A DNA stretch of 64,000 nucleotides, from contig JAHHIF010000008.1 in assembly GCA_019358875.1 (NCBI GenBank), forward strand, positions 124,001-188,000, read 5' to 3'. This stretch comes from Symplocastrum torsivum CPER-KK1. Its GTDB lineage: Bacteria; Cyanobacteriota; Cyanobacteriia; Cyanobacteriales; Coleofasciculaceae. Numbering within the stretch: position 1 is the stretch's first letter; each line of letters starts with the position of its first letter. Both the position numbers and the translations under genes were made by a program. A model generated the notes under the pieces. That model was not told the DNA's origin. It saw only the letters and a list, made by a program, of their open reading frames with translations, and searched no databases. Shown piece after piece: positions 29,594 to 39,176 of this stretch.

Positions 29594-30274
29594 TTATGCC
29601 TGGTTCGAGGCTTCTTCCAAACGCTTTAGCGAAATGGATGCCGATTCGGAAACTTGGCGATGGTTGTCTTTTTCCAAAAATTTTAATGCCGAAATGCTTT
29701 TACTGCTCTTGAGCTGACCAAGTGCTTCGGCTAAGCGTTGACGGATTAGCCAATCGTCTGACTGAGCGAAGCGTAGGATATCATCAACAGATTCTATCGC
29801 TTTAATTTCACCCAAAGCTGCGATTGCTGCTTGTTGCAGAACGACTTCATTGCTATTCAAAGCTTGGGTAAGAACTTCACGAGCGCGAGGGTCTTTAATA
29901 TTGCCTAATGATACTGCTGCACTGAAACGTACTAACCATTCTGTGTCTTCATAGAAAGCCCGAACCAGAGGTTCAAACGCTCTACCGTCACCTAAATAGC
30001 CCAAAGCACCTGCTGCATCAGCACGAATCCCATAATCTGGGTCAGTTTCGAGTAATTTCACCAGAATTGGATAACACTCTTCGGTTCCCTTAACCCCCAG
30101 AGCAAAGACTGCCATTGAGCGGATTTGTAAATTTTTGTCGTCTAAGACTTTTTTAATCAAAGGTACTGCCTCAACCGCTGACACATCGCGCAGTGAGGCA
30201 AGCGCCACCATGCGATCGCGTGAGTTAGGGCTTTCAAGCTGAGTAGAGAGTTGCTCGATGTTGGAACGATCCAT
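29594..30274 (-). CDS. HEAT-repeat protein, IaiH/CpcE-F-like
   Basis: About 226 residues forming five to six HEAT repeats, for example IRSMAVFALGVKGTEECYPI, IRADAAGALGYLGDGRAFEP, VRFSAAVSLGNIKDPRAREV and IRQRLAEALGQLKSSKSISA. The closest groups I know are the cyanobacterial CpcE/CpcF bilin lyase subunits, NblB, and IaiH, a partner of the iron-sulfur scaffold IscA. I cannot tell which applies, so no symbol. The ATG at 30274 is preferred to a TTG two codons upstream. Its position before cpcS suggests a role in phycobilin attachment or turnover. It is divergent from rlmN. Confidence 0.8.
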   Translation of the reverse strand: MDRSNIEQLSTQLESPNSRDRMVALASLRDVSAVEAVPLIKKVLDDKNLQIRSMAVFALGVKGTEECYPILVKLLETDPDYGIRADAAGALGYLGDGRAFEPLVRAFYEDTEWLVRFSAAVSLGNIKDPRAREVLTQALNSNEVVLQQAAIAALGEIKAIESVDDILRFAQSDDWLIRQRLAEALGQLKSSKSISALKFLEKDNHRQVSESASISLKRLEEASNQA

Positions 30275-30451
30275 GGGCAAATATTAGTGAGTGTAATCTT
30301 TCTTAATAATATCGAAGTACCCAACTAGAGTGATAGGGGAAAATCAACCTCTGTGAGTTCGGTGATTACTCAGGTGTGAAACGTTAGAAATTCCATCAGC
30401 CTTGCTGTGAAGTTCTAGGATAGAGATCTAAGGTAAATTTTTAATCTATAT

Positions 30452-34365: not shown

Positions 34366-34839
34366 TTAGAGGTGCTTATCCAACAACTTTTGAAACAAAC
34401 TGTCAGATGCCCAGAAGGATGTACTTTGAAGATTTTGGACAGCAGCAGGTAGATCGATAAGTTTCATAGTCGCTGCTTGATCTAGAATTCCGAGGATGCC
34501 CGTGATGGCAAGCCCTCTTTTTGTCGCAGTGCGCCGTGCCTTCATATCATCTAGCAAGAGTAAATCTGCATTGAGTTCTTGGGCTAGAAGGATGGCTGCA
34601 CGTTCTCCAGGATCGAGTAGATCGAGAATTGCATCTGAAGGTTGACTGACAGGCTGAATTTTGAGCCAATCGGGTGGTGTTGCAATCCAAGTTTGGACAG
34701 GTGAGGGGGCAGATGTATCGGAAAGTTCGCTGTAGACTGCCTGGGGAATAATGATTGCACCGAACAGTTCGGGTAAAAGGTTGATGTGACCAATCAGGAT
34801 TAGGTAGTTGATTGGGGAGGTATTGGAGACAATAATCAT
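34366..34839 (-). CDS. DUF3368 PIN-like toxin of a type II toxin-antitoxin pair
   Basis: A 157-residue protein. IIVSNTSPINYLILIGHINL has the Asn-Thr-Ser-Pro replacing the usual PIN Asp region but keeping the family start; LLDPGERAAILLAQELNADL holds the conserved Glu; LLLDDMKARRTATKRGL holds the Asp-Asp. DUF3368 proteins are PIN-related nucleases paired with UPF0175 antitoxins. Its start overlaps the antitoxin stop by 4 bp (ATGA), so translation is coupled. It is the last gene of an operon that begins with the NACHT-HEAT gene. Confidence 0.85.
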   Translation of the reverse strand: MIIVSNTSPINYLILIGHINLLPELFGAIIIPQAVYSELSDTSAPSPVQTWIATPPDWLKIQPVSQPSDAILDLLDPGERAAILLAQELNADLLLLDDMKARRTATKRGLAITGILGILDQAATMKLIDLPAAVQNLQSTSFWASDSLFQKLLDKHL

Positions 34840-35105
34840 TCCTTGGCTAAAACATTGCGAATTGCTTGTGCATCTTGCTCCAAGTCGTCTTCAGTATAGG
34901 GTAAGTAGGCTTTTTCACGCTTGAGGAATTCATAGGTTTCCCAACGAGATGAGAAGTTGAGCATTCGGCGGACTTGGGCGGCTCCAATGCGTCCTTGACG
35001 ATAGTTATCAGCCGCAATGAGTTCCAAAATTCGGCGGGAGATGTTGGCAGGTTGCAGTTGCAGTTGATTGGCGATCTCATCGGGGAGTTCGATCATGATT
35101 TGCAT
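34836..35105 (-). CDS. UPF0175 antitoxin
   Basis: An 89-residue protein of the UPF0175 family, which are antitoxins for DUF3368 PIN-like toxins. The helix-turn-helix-like segment is QGRIGAAQVRRMLNFSSRWE with YEFLKREKAYLPYTEDDLEQ following, a strong family signature. The N-terminus MIELPDEIANQL is a short strand-helix used for dimerisation. Its ATG is 3 bp after the stop of the NACHT-HEAT gene, and the ribosome binding site AAGGAG lies inside the end of that gene, so expression depends on it. Confidence 0.88.
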   Translation of the reverse strand: MQIMIELPDEIANQLQLQPANISRRILELIAADNYRQGRIGAAQVRRMLNFSSRWETYEFLKREKAYLPYTEDDLEQDAQAIRNVLAKE

Positions 35106-35108
35106 AAA

Positions 35109-38100
35109 TTATTCTCCTTGGTCAGTTTCAGCACTCAAGCTGTCGAGATAGGTAATAGCGGCTTTAGCCATGAGGCTGTCTTCGAGGTAATGTTTAGCGA
35201 CTTCAGCAAGGGTGGCTTTGGTGGCTTTAAGATGACTTTCGGGGTTGAGGAGTTGGCGCTTTAAAAGTTGTAGTTGTTTCCGGATTGTTTGCCATCGACT
35301 CGGATTCGTCTGTTGGATTTCGCGAAATTCGACATTAATGATTTCAGCAGCTTCGACTTCGGTGATTGGTTGGTAGGTTTGCTGAAGTTGATTCACCAAT
35401 TGGCGAAGTTCGGGAATTTGTTGTTTCAGAGCTTCATTGTTTGCATAATTGTGGGTGTGAGTATGAGTGCCTTTTTCAAAGTAGTTTTTAGTATTAATGA
35501 TGCGCTTGGGTACTTCTGACACTTTTTTGATCTCCTGGGTAAGGGTGTCTAGTTTATCGTGTAAAAAATCTTCTGCCCTCCTCTTTCCGTCTTCCGTTCT
35601 CTGAGGAGGCGGCAACTGGGCGATGTCGTAGTTGTAGAACAGGCAGCGTGATTGGATAGCAGTGATCGCAGCGGCAATATTATCATTTGGAAATTTGACT
35701 TGTAGTTGGAAAAGTTTAGGTAGTGCCTTAGAATTTCCAATCTTCTCTAATGCCTCAACAATTATGGCTCGCTCTTTGAAGCTTTCATTCTCCAACGGAC
35801 TCAATAGCCCTGAAATTGCGGTCTCAGTTCCTAATGCTGCTAAGTCATATGCTGCACCATTTTTAGAAAGAGGGTCTGCTTCCTCCAATGCCTTTACCAA
35901 AACGGAGATCGCTTCTTCTCTGCCTAATCGGGCTAGTACACGAGCTGCATGAAAACGTACCTCAATGTTCTGGTTCTCATGTCCAAGAATCGGTAACAGT
36001 TTTGATGCTACTTCCCTACTATCAACCTTCTCCAGTACAGAAATTGCCTGAATACAAACAAACGAATCTTGATTGATTAGGCTTCTACAAAGCAGTGGTA
36101 TTAAGGTTGCACTGAATATCTCTGATTTTCGCTGAATTCTATTTAATGCAGAAGCTGCGCCAGAATAAATATGCCTATCTTGATGTTCTAAAGCTTTCAT
36201 CAATACTGGAATTGCTGCCTCAACCTCTAGTTGATCCCATATAAAAAACATACTTGAAGGAAATGGATCATCTAGGGTCTTGATGAGCGCTGACGTTCCT
36301 ACTTCACTACCTAATCGTGATAGAGCGATGGCAATTTCTAATGAACCATAACAGTCCAAACATTCCAGTTTTTTACAATCTGAGCTTTCTAAAGCCTTGA
36401 TCAGGGCTGGAACCGCTTTTGCATTGCCGATTAGTCCTAACGCTCTAGCAGCACTCCCACGAATACTCAAATTTGAATGCTCTAAAGTTCGCTCTAACTC
36501 TGGAATCGCTGCTTCGCCACCAATTTGCCCCAATTCTTCAGTAGCACTTAAGCGAACAGAAAAGTCTCCATCATTTTTCAAAGTTTGGATTAAGTCTGGA
36601 ATCGCTGCTTCACTATGGATCTGACCTAGCGCTCTAGTTGCATTCAAACGAACGTGTCTGTCTGTGTCCGCTAGAGCTTCTACCAGATTTGAAACTGCTA
36701 CTTCATCTCCGATTTTCCCTAGTGCAAGAGCAACACTACCACGAACCGTAGAATCTTCATCCTTCTCTAAAATATCTAACAAGATTGGAATTGCTGACTT
36801 ATTACCTAGTTGTCCTAAAATTTCTATTACGCTTCTGCGAATATAACAATTATCATCTGTTGTTAGAATATCGAACATTGCTTTAGTTACTGCATCGCTA
36901 CCAATCTGCCCTAAAGCCTTAATTACGCTCTCTTTGACTTCAACAGTATTTCTATTTAGAGCTTTTAGTAGTATGGGAATAGCCGCATCATTACCAATTC
37001 TGCCTAACGCTTCAATAGCCTTTTGACGAACAGAAGATTTTGGATGTTTTTCTATAGCTTCAAATAAAGCCCAGACAGCTCTCTCACTATTTAACAGTTC
37101 CAAGGCAGAGATTGCTTTACCACAAATAGTAAATTCAGAGTTTTCCAGAGCATTTGAAAGTGCTGGAATCCCATTTGTATGTCCTAATTTTTCCAATTCA
37201 TAAGCTGCCCTTAGATAAACATCCCAATCTTTCTGTTGTTCTAGGGCTTTCAATAGTGCTGAAATCGCTGCTTTGCTACCTATTGCTCCTAATGCGGAAA
37301 CTGCTGCTAAACGGACAAAATAAGCTGTATCATCCAAGGCTTTCTTTAGTCCAGGAACTACAGTTTCGCTGCCAATTTTTCCTAGTGCAGTAACTGTAGC
37401 CCAGCGAACAGTGAAAACTGGATCATCGTCTAAGGCTTTCAGGAGTGCTGGAACTGCCGTTTCATTGCCGATTTCCCCCAAAGCTTCTGCTGCCTTCTCA
37501 CGAACATTAGGTGCTTGATCTTTTAGAAGTAGAAGATCGAGTAGTGTGGCGATCGCATATTCAGAACGAGTGATACCTAGAAGCTCTCCTTTAAGTAAGG
37601 GAGGTGGGTTTAAGCTAGTAATGAGTTCAATGGTTTGTGGCTGGCATACTGGTTTGACCTGCCCTGCCAACCTTGCACCCAAATACGAATCTACTTTTAG
37701 CGCCAGATCTATTAGCTGTTGTGCCAGATTTTCAGTTATTTCTGGCAGCCCAAGCATAATGGCGATCGGCTCTGTCCACTTCAAGTAGTTGAGATAATGA
37801 CACTTCAGTTTCGTCTCACCTTCGTCATCCCTCAGAAGTTCAGGTAAATATTGCAGCAAGTATTCCGCCGCATAGTATTCCTGAATTAGTTGATGGTGAA
37901 AACTAACTTCCCTATCAGAGACTCTTTCCAAAAGGTGATACTTGAGTAACTCTTCAATCCGGGATGAAGCACCATGAAGATCGCCAAACTTTTCAGCAAG
38001 CACTTTTTCTGCTCGGTCGTCAGAGATTACCAAGCCAGTTGCGGTTGCCTCCGGAGAGTTCAGCATTGTGAACGCCAGATGTTTCAACCAAGGATTCCAA

Positions 38101-38981
38101 GCTTTGCGACGCTCATCTGTAACGGGTGCGTCTTCCTTATATTTTTTGAAAGACGGGAAAAATTGACGGAATGCCTCTCCCAAAGTCTCTACAACAGCGT
38201 CTGCCTCCTGAAACAAGTGATACAGCATCCACAAAACAAAGGGCGTGCGGCTTAACTCTCGATTATCTCGGCTCAACAATTGCAACACCTGTTGCGCTTG
38301 ACCGGGCATACATTCTTGCAAAAAGCGATTGATTTCTGGAGGGCTAGGTGGTTGAACTTCCAGCCTTCTTTTGATGCCCAAATCGCCGCTGCCTAACTCT
38401 CGCGTTGTGCAGATGAGTGGTATTTCATCGCACTCCTCACGAAATGCTTTCAGTTGTGTACGAACTGTGTCTGCTGGCATCTCGTTCAAGCCATCCAAAA
38501 GCAGAATCAGCCGTTTCTGAAACAATAGTTCTTCAACTTCTGGAATTTTCAGTCGTAGTTGTGGCTTAAGGGCATCTCTAATCAGAGTCAACATCCCTGA
38601 AGGATCTTCAGAGCTAGAAAAACGGACGTTGTACCTTTTCAACGGAACCAGCACTGGAATTCGAGGTTCTGCTTTCCCAAGCTCTTCTTTTGCAAAACTA
38701 ACCAAACAACGCAAAAGGGCGGTTGATTTGCCGACACCTGGCGAACCTACCAGCAAAATATGCTCAGATTCGATGTAATTCTGGATTCCTTTGAGTATTG
38801 GCAGTGAGACTATCTGCGGCTTCTCCCCTGGCTTCTTCTCCTCAGTTTGCACCATCTGCTCAAATGAGAAGGTTGCCTGTCGATCCGCGATCATTTCAGT
38901 CAAAGCATCCACAGCCCACCACTTCTCATAGCGGCGGCAGATTTTTTGTAGATAGCGCTGAAACTCGCTAAGGGCAATCAT
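35109..38981 (-). CDS. NACHT NTPase with long HEAT-repeat array (STAND-type)
   Basis: A 1290-residue multidomain protein. Residues 1-60 form a short leader. NACHT NTPase: Walker A LLVGSPGVGKSTALLR (about 76-91), Walker B RLILLLDGLNEMP (about 157-169), sensor-like ICTTRE (190-195) and winged-helix remnants to about 400. From about 470 to 1110 there are some 20 HEAT repeats (for example VREKAAEALGEIGNETAVP). The last 160 residues (from about 1130) form a helical domain with a His-rich THTHTHNY segment and a coiled coil. NACHT STAND proteins act as signal-sensing switches, and several defend bacteria against phage. It leads an operon with a toxin-antitoxin pair. The triggering ligand is unknown. 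Confidence 0.88.
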   Translation of the reverse strand: MIALSEFQRYLQKICRRYEKWWAVDALTEMIADRQATFSFEQMVQTEEKKPGEKPQIVSLPILKGIQNYIESEHILLVGSPGVGKSTALLRCLVSFAKEELGKAEPRIPVLVPLKRYNVRFSSSEDPSGMLTLIRDALKPQLRLKIPEVEELLFQKRLILLLDGLNEMPADTVRTQLKAFREECDEIPLICTTRELGSGDLGIKRRLEVQPPSPPEINRFLQECMPGQAQQVLQLLSRDNRELSRTPFVLWMLYHLFQEADAVVETLGEAFRQFFPSFKKYKEDAPVTDERRKAWNPWLKHLAFTMLNSPEATATGLVISDDRAEKVLAEKFGDLHGASSRIEELLKYHLLERVSDREVSFHHQLIQEYYAAEYLLQYLPELLRDDEGETKLKCHYLNYLKWTEPIAIMLGLPEITENLAQQLIDLALKVDSYLGARLAGQVKPVCQPQTIELITSLNPPPLLKGELLGITRSEYAIATLLDLLLLKDQAPNVREKAAEALGEIGNETAVPALLKALDDDPVFTVRWATVTALGKIGSETVVPGLKKALDDTAYFVRLAAVSALGAIGSKAAISALLKALEQQKDWDVYLRAAYELEKLGHTNGIPALSNALENSEFTICGKAISALELLNSERAVWALFEAIEKHPKSSVRQKAIEALGRIGNDAAIPILLKALNRNTVEVKESVIKALGQIGSDAVTKAMFDILTTDDNCYIRRSVIEILGQLGNKSAIPILLDILEKDEDSTVRGSVALALGKIGDEVAVSNLVEALADTDRHVRLNATRALGQIHSEAAIPDLIQTLKNDGDFSVRLSATEELGQIGGEAAIPELERTLEHSNLSIRGSAARALGLIGNAKAVPALIKALESSDCKKLECLDCYGSLEIAIALSRLGSEVGTSALIKTLDDPFPSSMFFIWDQLEVEAAIPVLMKALEHQDRHIYSGAASALNRIQRKSEIFSATLIPLLCRSLINQDSFVCIQAISVLEKVDSREVASKLLPILGHENQNIEVRFHAARVLARLGREEAISVLVKALEEADPLSKNGAAYDLAALGTETAISGLLSPLENESFKERAIIVEALEKIGNSKALPKLFQLQVKFPNDNIAAAITAIQSRCLFYNYDIAQLPPPQRTEDGKRRAEDFLHDKLDTLTQEIKKVSEVPKRIINTKNYFEKGTHTHTHNYANNEALKQQIPELRQLVNQLQQTYQPITEVEAAEIINVEFREIQQTNPSRWQTIRKQLQLLKRQLLNPESHLKATKATLAEVAKHYLEDSLMAKAAITYLDSLSAETDQGE

Positions 38982-39176
38982 GCGAGAGTGAAGTTATATC
39001 CATCTCAAGAGAGTCTTCTCTATGATAGGCAGCTTATTCGGCATGATGCCCAGATGAAATGGGCACTGGGATTGAGGGCTGATAGCCTCTATTTCAGAAT
39101 CAAGAGATCAGTCAAGTGCGATCGCATTAGTGTACGCTGCTTTTTGAGAGGCAGTACCCATTGAGGAGAAAGTGTC

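Follow-up and report, generated by a model that had tools for sequence, protein, structure and literature searches.

Does a toxin-antitoxin pair that directly follows a NACHT-HEAT gene serve that gene, protect it, or merely lie next to it? The question is raised by a locus in the window, i.e., the whole stretch of 64,000 nucleotides analysed here, in which a gene for a NACHT-HEAT STAND NTPase is followed on the same strand by a UPF0175 gene and a DUF3368 gene (Table 1). We examined the anatomy of the three genes, their relatedness to counterparts in other genomes and the frequency with which NACHT genes and the pair adjoin.

Table 1 Features of the NACHT-HEAT locus, in positions of the window.
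Feature	Coordinates	Strand	Basis or remark
DUF3368 (PIN-like) toxin, 157 aa	34366..34839	-	ORF call, Pfam, PADLOC
Homology block 2, pair and leader	34372..35119	-	92% identity to Kastovskya, 84% to Coleofasciculus MAG
UPF0175 (COG2886) antitoxin, 89 aa	34836..35105	-	ORF call, Pfam
NACHT-HEAT STAND NTPase, 1290 aa	35109..38981	-	ORF call; Walker A GSPGVGKST and Walker B LILLLDGLNE in translation
Swappable adaptor-like C-terminal tail, aa 1120-1290	35112..35624	-	Alignment with relatives
Shine-Dalgarno AAGGAG of antitoxin	35114..35119	-	Within final NACHT codons
Replaced segment between blocks, HEAT array and tail	35120..37767	-	blastn
Conserved cap IQSRC-FYNYD closing HEAT array, aa 1109-1119	35625..35657	-	Alignment, pattern count, homology islands of 41-55 nt
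HEAT-repeat array, aa ~480-1100	35682..37544	-	Pfam HEAT_2, 4e-104; hypervariable among relatives
NACHT domain, aa 75-201	38379..38759	-	Pfam PF05729, E 5.8e-7, 29.9 bits vs cut-off 26.7
Leader/promoter region, 107 nt, conserved with Kastovskya	38982..39088	-	93% block, aligned leaders
Palindrome GGCATNATGCC, operator-like	39040..39050		59-69 nt before NACHT start

Anatomy of the locus

The layout described in the original prediction was recovered in full: a NACHT protein of 1290 aa, a gap of 3 bp between its gene and the UPF0175 gene, an antitoxin ribosome binding site inside the NACHT gene and an overlap of 4 bp between the UPF0175 and DUF3368 genes. Its count of about 20 HEAT repeats is likewise fair, as the units recur with a period of 93–96 nt (31–32 aa) and span about 620 aa. 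A strong promoter of the pair's own within the NACHT gene had been named as a sign of accidental linkage. On the antitoxin's strand, no promoter-like site lies immediately before its gene; the sole minus-strand match is at 35788–35761, and the total of promoter-like matches equalled that of shuffled sequence. As the junction measures 3 bp, the ribosome binding site falls within the NACHT gene and no promoter was seen nearby, the pair would be read from the NACHT promoter. With their single orientation and coupled junction, the three genes very probably share one transcript, as the proposal of one operon had implied. The cyanobacterial genome of 7.8 Mb contains seven UPF0175 genes, from which we estimate that such a gene would lie next downstream of a given gene by chance in about 1/1000 cases. 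Among the neighbours are short-chain dehydrogenase-type genes (identified by Pfam) and one gene that we take, from its sequence, to be hflX, and the surroundings therefore do not look like a defence island. A search of Rfam yielded no RNA family close to the locus. A second HEAT-repeat protein of 228 aa is encoded 5 kb away (29594–30280) and is, as far as seen, unrelated to the cassette.

Pfam detected no domain before aa 75 of the NACHT protein and no enzymatic domain in its tail, leaving the protein without a recognisable effector, and a PDB sequence search with the NACHT part gave no significant match. The HEAT superstructure repeats presumably act as the sensor. The tail, together with the cap, shares 82% DNA identity over 561 nt (window 35109–35667, L203:4718–5276) with the tail of an otherwise divergent NACHT-HEAT gene in genome G091, which belongs to another family. 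This match ends at the window's NACHT stop codon, abutting the antitoxin leader, and the tail thus appears to be a moving C-terminal module. A different tail type is common to Kastovskya, a Coleofasciculus MAG and Microcoleus. Across the family, the cap is followed by TIR_2 (L057), PNP_UDP (L060), Metallophos (L061, L079) or helical adaptor-like tails, and some members carry an N-terminal Trypsin domain (L072, L087). In its own genome the window's tail is single copy, i.e., no second copy that could act as adaptor partner was found at the sensitivity used. No named EAD or death-like domain was identified in the tail, and its AlphaFold model, from a single sequence, reached a pLDDT of 43, too poor for a fold search. 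Small detached tail-like genes follow the NACHT gene in four genomes, G056, G172, G186 and G198. Genes of this kind lie at L196:3219-3605, L211:11406-11810, L087:136-591 and L192:9278-9685. Several of them begin with a motif that recurs at the NACHT C-terminus, e.g., NNGTVIGQQ / NDGNVIGKQ, which suggests that detached genes and NACHT C-termini may form homotypic adaptor pairs.

The antitoxin matches Pfam UPF0175 (1.7e-19), and the toxin matches DUF3368 marginally (1.4e-6, 28.5 bits vs a cut-off of 27.3) and the PADLOC candidate models PDC-S70 strongly (3.7e-50). The UPF0175 gene directly precedes and overlaps the DUF3368 gene, the order of COG2886-PIN pairs, and the DUF3368 protein probably acts as a toxin. 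PIN nucleases usually carry Asp as the first metal-binding residue. At codon 6 of the toxin (34822–34824), Asn6 within the motif SNTSP replaces this usual first catalytic Asp, whereas the acidic positions E38, E79 and D97 are invariant. The Asn form occurs in most close free-standing copies of the toxin (L144–L183) and Asp in most copies of ~50% identity. PDB searches with the toxin and antitoxin sequences and with a toxin profile returned no significant relative, and the AlphaFold model of the toxin (pLDDT 49 from a 3-row alignment) was too poor for a fold search. The pair is under purifying selection, with dN/dS relative to Kastovskya of 0.09 for the antitoxin and 0.13 for the toxin.

Shared ends and a replaced middle

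Comparison with Kastovskya by blastn resolved the locus into two blocks. Block 1 begins 107 nt upstream of the NACHT start codon and extends to about aa 405, with 93% DNA identity; block 2 starts 14 nt before the antitoxin start and runs to the toxin end, and the antitoxin leader of Kastovskya matches that of the window. Between the blocks only short homology islands remain, chiefly the conserved cap; the DNA of the HEAT array has no homology to Kastovskya, and neither flank of the window locus gave a match. Values of dS are 0.24 for the NACHT part (aa 1–450), 0.35 for the antitoxin and 0.26 for the toxin, and saturated for the HEAT region, against about 2.3 for hflX, the one core gene that serves as yardstick; this single gene limits the comparison, as does the fact that both comparison genomes are MAGs. 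Because dS is so much lower at the ends of the locus than in hflX and all flanking homology is lost, it is evident that promoter, NACHT domain and pair were transferred together, and the NACHT end and the pair appear to have been acquired or exchanged jointly far later than the hosts diverged. It thus seems that the three genes passed from genus to genus as a single unit. The operon junction at the ribosome binding site was retained although HEAT array and tail were replaced. Both of these differ between the window and Kastovskya, yet the pair is kept in both; it thus tracks neither the HEAT sensor nor the tail.

For the copy in the Coleofasciculus MAG, dS relative to the window is about 0.7 for the pair and 0.31–0.46 for the NACHT part, so that the pair looks older than its neighbour, and either a second capture or an exchange of the pair may have occurred there. 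In the DNA tree of the pair, window and Kastovskya are grouped (85/73) with the Coleofasciculus copy outside. A single origin of the three NACHT-linked pairs is weakly disfavoured (AU p = 0.046, 0/200 bootstraps).

The palindrome GGCATNATGCC occurs once in the window (0.09 copies expected) and also precedes the NACHT genes of Kastovskya, Microcoleus and G227 (L011:7933-7943, L012:7932-7942, L210:10799-10809). As it stands before NACHT genes without a pair, it was ruled out as a part of the toxin-antitoxin module.

Distribution of NACHT genes and pairs

The survey from the NACHT side covered 54 distinct homologues for which no less than 600 nt could be read behind the gene, to which Microcoleus CAN_BIN18 (L012) and G227 (L210) were added. 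Among these 56 homologues with a readable 3′ end, the UPF0175-DUF3368 pair lies behind four: the window, Kastovskya adunca (gap of 18 bp), the Coleofasciculus MAG (111 bp) and G186 (231 bp), the first three being very close relatives. Kastovskya and the Coleofasciculus MAG keep the gene order and strand of the window, the NACHT gene of the latter apparently being divided between two contigs. G186 carries a trypsin-NACHT-HEAT gene with a NACHT part only about 45% identical; behind it stand UPF0175-DUF3368, a second pair resembling RHH/ParE and a detached tail-like gene. DUF4258/DUF2283-like genes were also recognised by eye in this toxin-antitoxin-like stack (L192:7786-10593). A RelE-type pair lies between the NACHT gene and the tail-like gene of G172, its RelE-like toxin being a weak match and its antitoxin assigned by eye. 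Because detached tails as well as the pairs of G172 and G186 are found at this position, the site behind these NACHT genes appears to receive adaptor-like genes and toxin-antitoxin pairs alike. The NACHT parts of G056, G227 and Microcoleus/G342 are 77–78% identical to that of the window, and their genes lack the pair; Microcoleus/G342 bears a tail of the Kastovskya type yet has no pair either. At L012 and L053, the two loci examined for relics of a pair, none was found downstream of the NACHT gene.

From the side of the pair, the toxin subfamily is present in 208 of 391 genomes of the order (E 1e-15). Around the 40 nearest other toxins, a few of them on contigs that end close by, the antitoxin was nearly always beside the toxin, usually overlapping. 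No NACHT gene lies upstream in any of these roughly 40 close pairs, from which the pair appears to be a normally free-standing module and, seen from the NACHT side, a rare add-on to the NACHT-HEAT family. A recurrent linkage was therefore not borne out (4/56, three of them close relatives), and the rarity that the original prediction had taken as a mark of accident is largely what we find. The locus is nevertheless not explained by pure accident, as its ends were co-transferred with those of Kastovskya.

Guard, effector or accident

To our preferred explanation we give an even chance: a NACHT-HEAT cassette moves horizontally, and the COG2886-PIN pair that it captured is its addiction or guard module. 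The mobile cassette would encode a STAND-type conflict protein whose HEAT sensor varies and whose adaptor-like tail can be exchanged, and it would have captured a complete UPF0175-DUF3368 type II pair directly behind the NACHT stop codon. The NACHT promoter would drive the pair, and the UPF0175 antitoxin would neutralise the PIN toxin. If the cassette were lost or its transcription shut down, e.g., by a phage, the more stable toxin would be left free. The pair would thus hinder loss of the NACHT gene and perhaps provide a second, NACHT-independent abortive response, while the NACHT protein, with its presumed defence function, would act through its own tail. The inheritance of NACHT end and pair as one unit, seen in dS and block structure between the window and Kastovskya, agrees with a guard, as do the retention of the junction through the replacement of HEAT array and tail and the low dN/dS of both pair genes. 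So does the lodging of other pairs behind the gene family, RelE-type in G172 and UPF0175-DUF3368 with RHH/ParE in G186, and guarding of a defence locus by a toxin-antitoxin module has a precedent in CreTA (PMC9458426). UPF0175-PIN has been catalogued as a pair found mostly in archaea and cyanobacteria (PMC2701414) and is free-standing elsewhere, so it should work without NACHT. Against this explanation stands the handful of linked cases, three of which are close relatives. The tree that does not group the three NACHT-linked pairs, the greater age of the pair in the comparison with the Coleofasciculus MAG, the reliance of the co-transfer yardstick on one core gene and on MAGs, and Asn6 of the toxin also weigh against it. 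The rarity of linked cases may also be read as an accidental neighbourhood, in which a promiscuous pair landed once behind a NACHT gene and was passed on by descent and transfer without joint function. This account, which we hold to be quite possible though tentative, describes the data nearly as well: it agrees with the few linked homologues, the many close pairs elsewhere without NACHT, the close NACHT relatives without the pair, and the wide gap and several toxin-antitoxin pairs of G186. However, dS values that are alike for the NACHT end and the pair, together with the loss of all flanking homology, show co-transfer, the junction outlasted replacement of HEAT array and tail, and similar junctions occur in three genera.

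The original prediction had the NACHT-HEAT protein as sensor and the pair as killing or guarding arm. With the pair as killing arm, the protein would detect an invader and free or activate the PIN toxin, e.g., by removing UPF0175. The tight operon is consistent with this, as is the match of the DUF3368 group to a PADLOC defence candidate, and an effector acting in trans is plausible for a protein that lacks the recognisable fused effectors of its relatives (TIR, PNP_UDP, Metallophos or Trypsin). However, the proposal gained no positive support. Exchange of the sensor and tail left the pair as it was, the pair is complete and free-standing elsewhere, and relatives with a NACHT part 77–78% identical, one of them with the Kastovskya tail type, do without it. 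The fused tail, with its detached counterparts in four genomes, is the likelier recruiting part. As a rare add-on, the pair more likely stabilises the cassette than serves as its killing arm, and we consider the latter unlikely. A related account, in which an effector-less NLR-like NACHT-HEAT protein uses the captured pair as effector, the PIN toxin being freed from UPF0175 on triggering, while the cassette spreads among cyanobacterial genera with exchange of HEAT array and tail, appears rather unlikely as well. Asn6 could further indicate a catalytically weak toxin, the pair being repurposed as an autoregulatory or binding module of the NACHT operon. SNTSP in the window and most close copies, with Asp in most of the ~50% identical ones, points this way, and purifying selection is strong nevertheless. 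However, the other acidic residues are invariant, free-standing pairs commonly have the same Asn and the operator-like palindrome also precedes NACHT genes without the pair, which makes this reading highly improbable.

The locus offers a small natural example in which to ask whether NLR-like immune genes are guarded or served by toxin-antitoxin pairs, and its conserved ends around a replaced HEAT array and tail show diversification of a bacterial sensor through module exchange. A full-text search of the open-access literature found no paper on the combination of NACHT-HEAT with UPF0175-DUF3368, whereas the NACHT-STAND class, the COG2886-PIN pair and guarding toxin-antitoxin pairs are known separately. 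Like the anti-phage bNACHT/STAND proteins, which are bacterial and NLR-related (bNACHT25, PMC12169576), the window protein has a NACHT NTPase before a presumed C-terminal sensor; unlike them it lacks a fused N-terminal effector and has a long HEAT array, an exchangeable tail and a pair behind it. The NTPase/adaptor conflict systems of multicellular bacteria (Kaur et al. 2020, 2021; PMC7159879, PMC8195603) likewise include STAND NTPases of cyanobacteria that carry superstructure repeats and in which effector or adaptor parts have been swapped, and PIN RNases have been noted among their effectors, whereas the PIN protein of the window is the unfused toxin of a separate, antitoxin-paired gene. 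The window agrees with the COG2886 (UPF0175)-PIN type II pair (Makarova 2009, PMC2701414) in the order and sizes of the genes, their short overlap, the families matched and the host phylum; that pair is usually free-standing, whereas here it follows a NACHT gene without a visible promoter of its own. CreTA and other guards of defence loci (PMC9458426, PMC12737573) have the role proposed here, making a locus costly to lose or shut down; CreTA differs in being RNA-based and directly repressed by Cascade.
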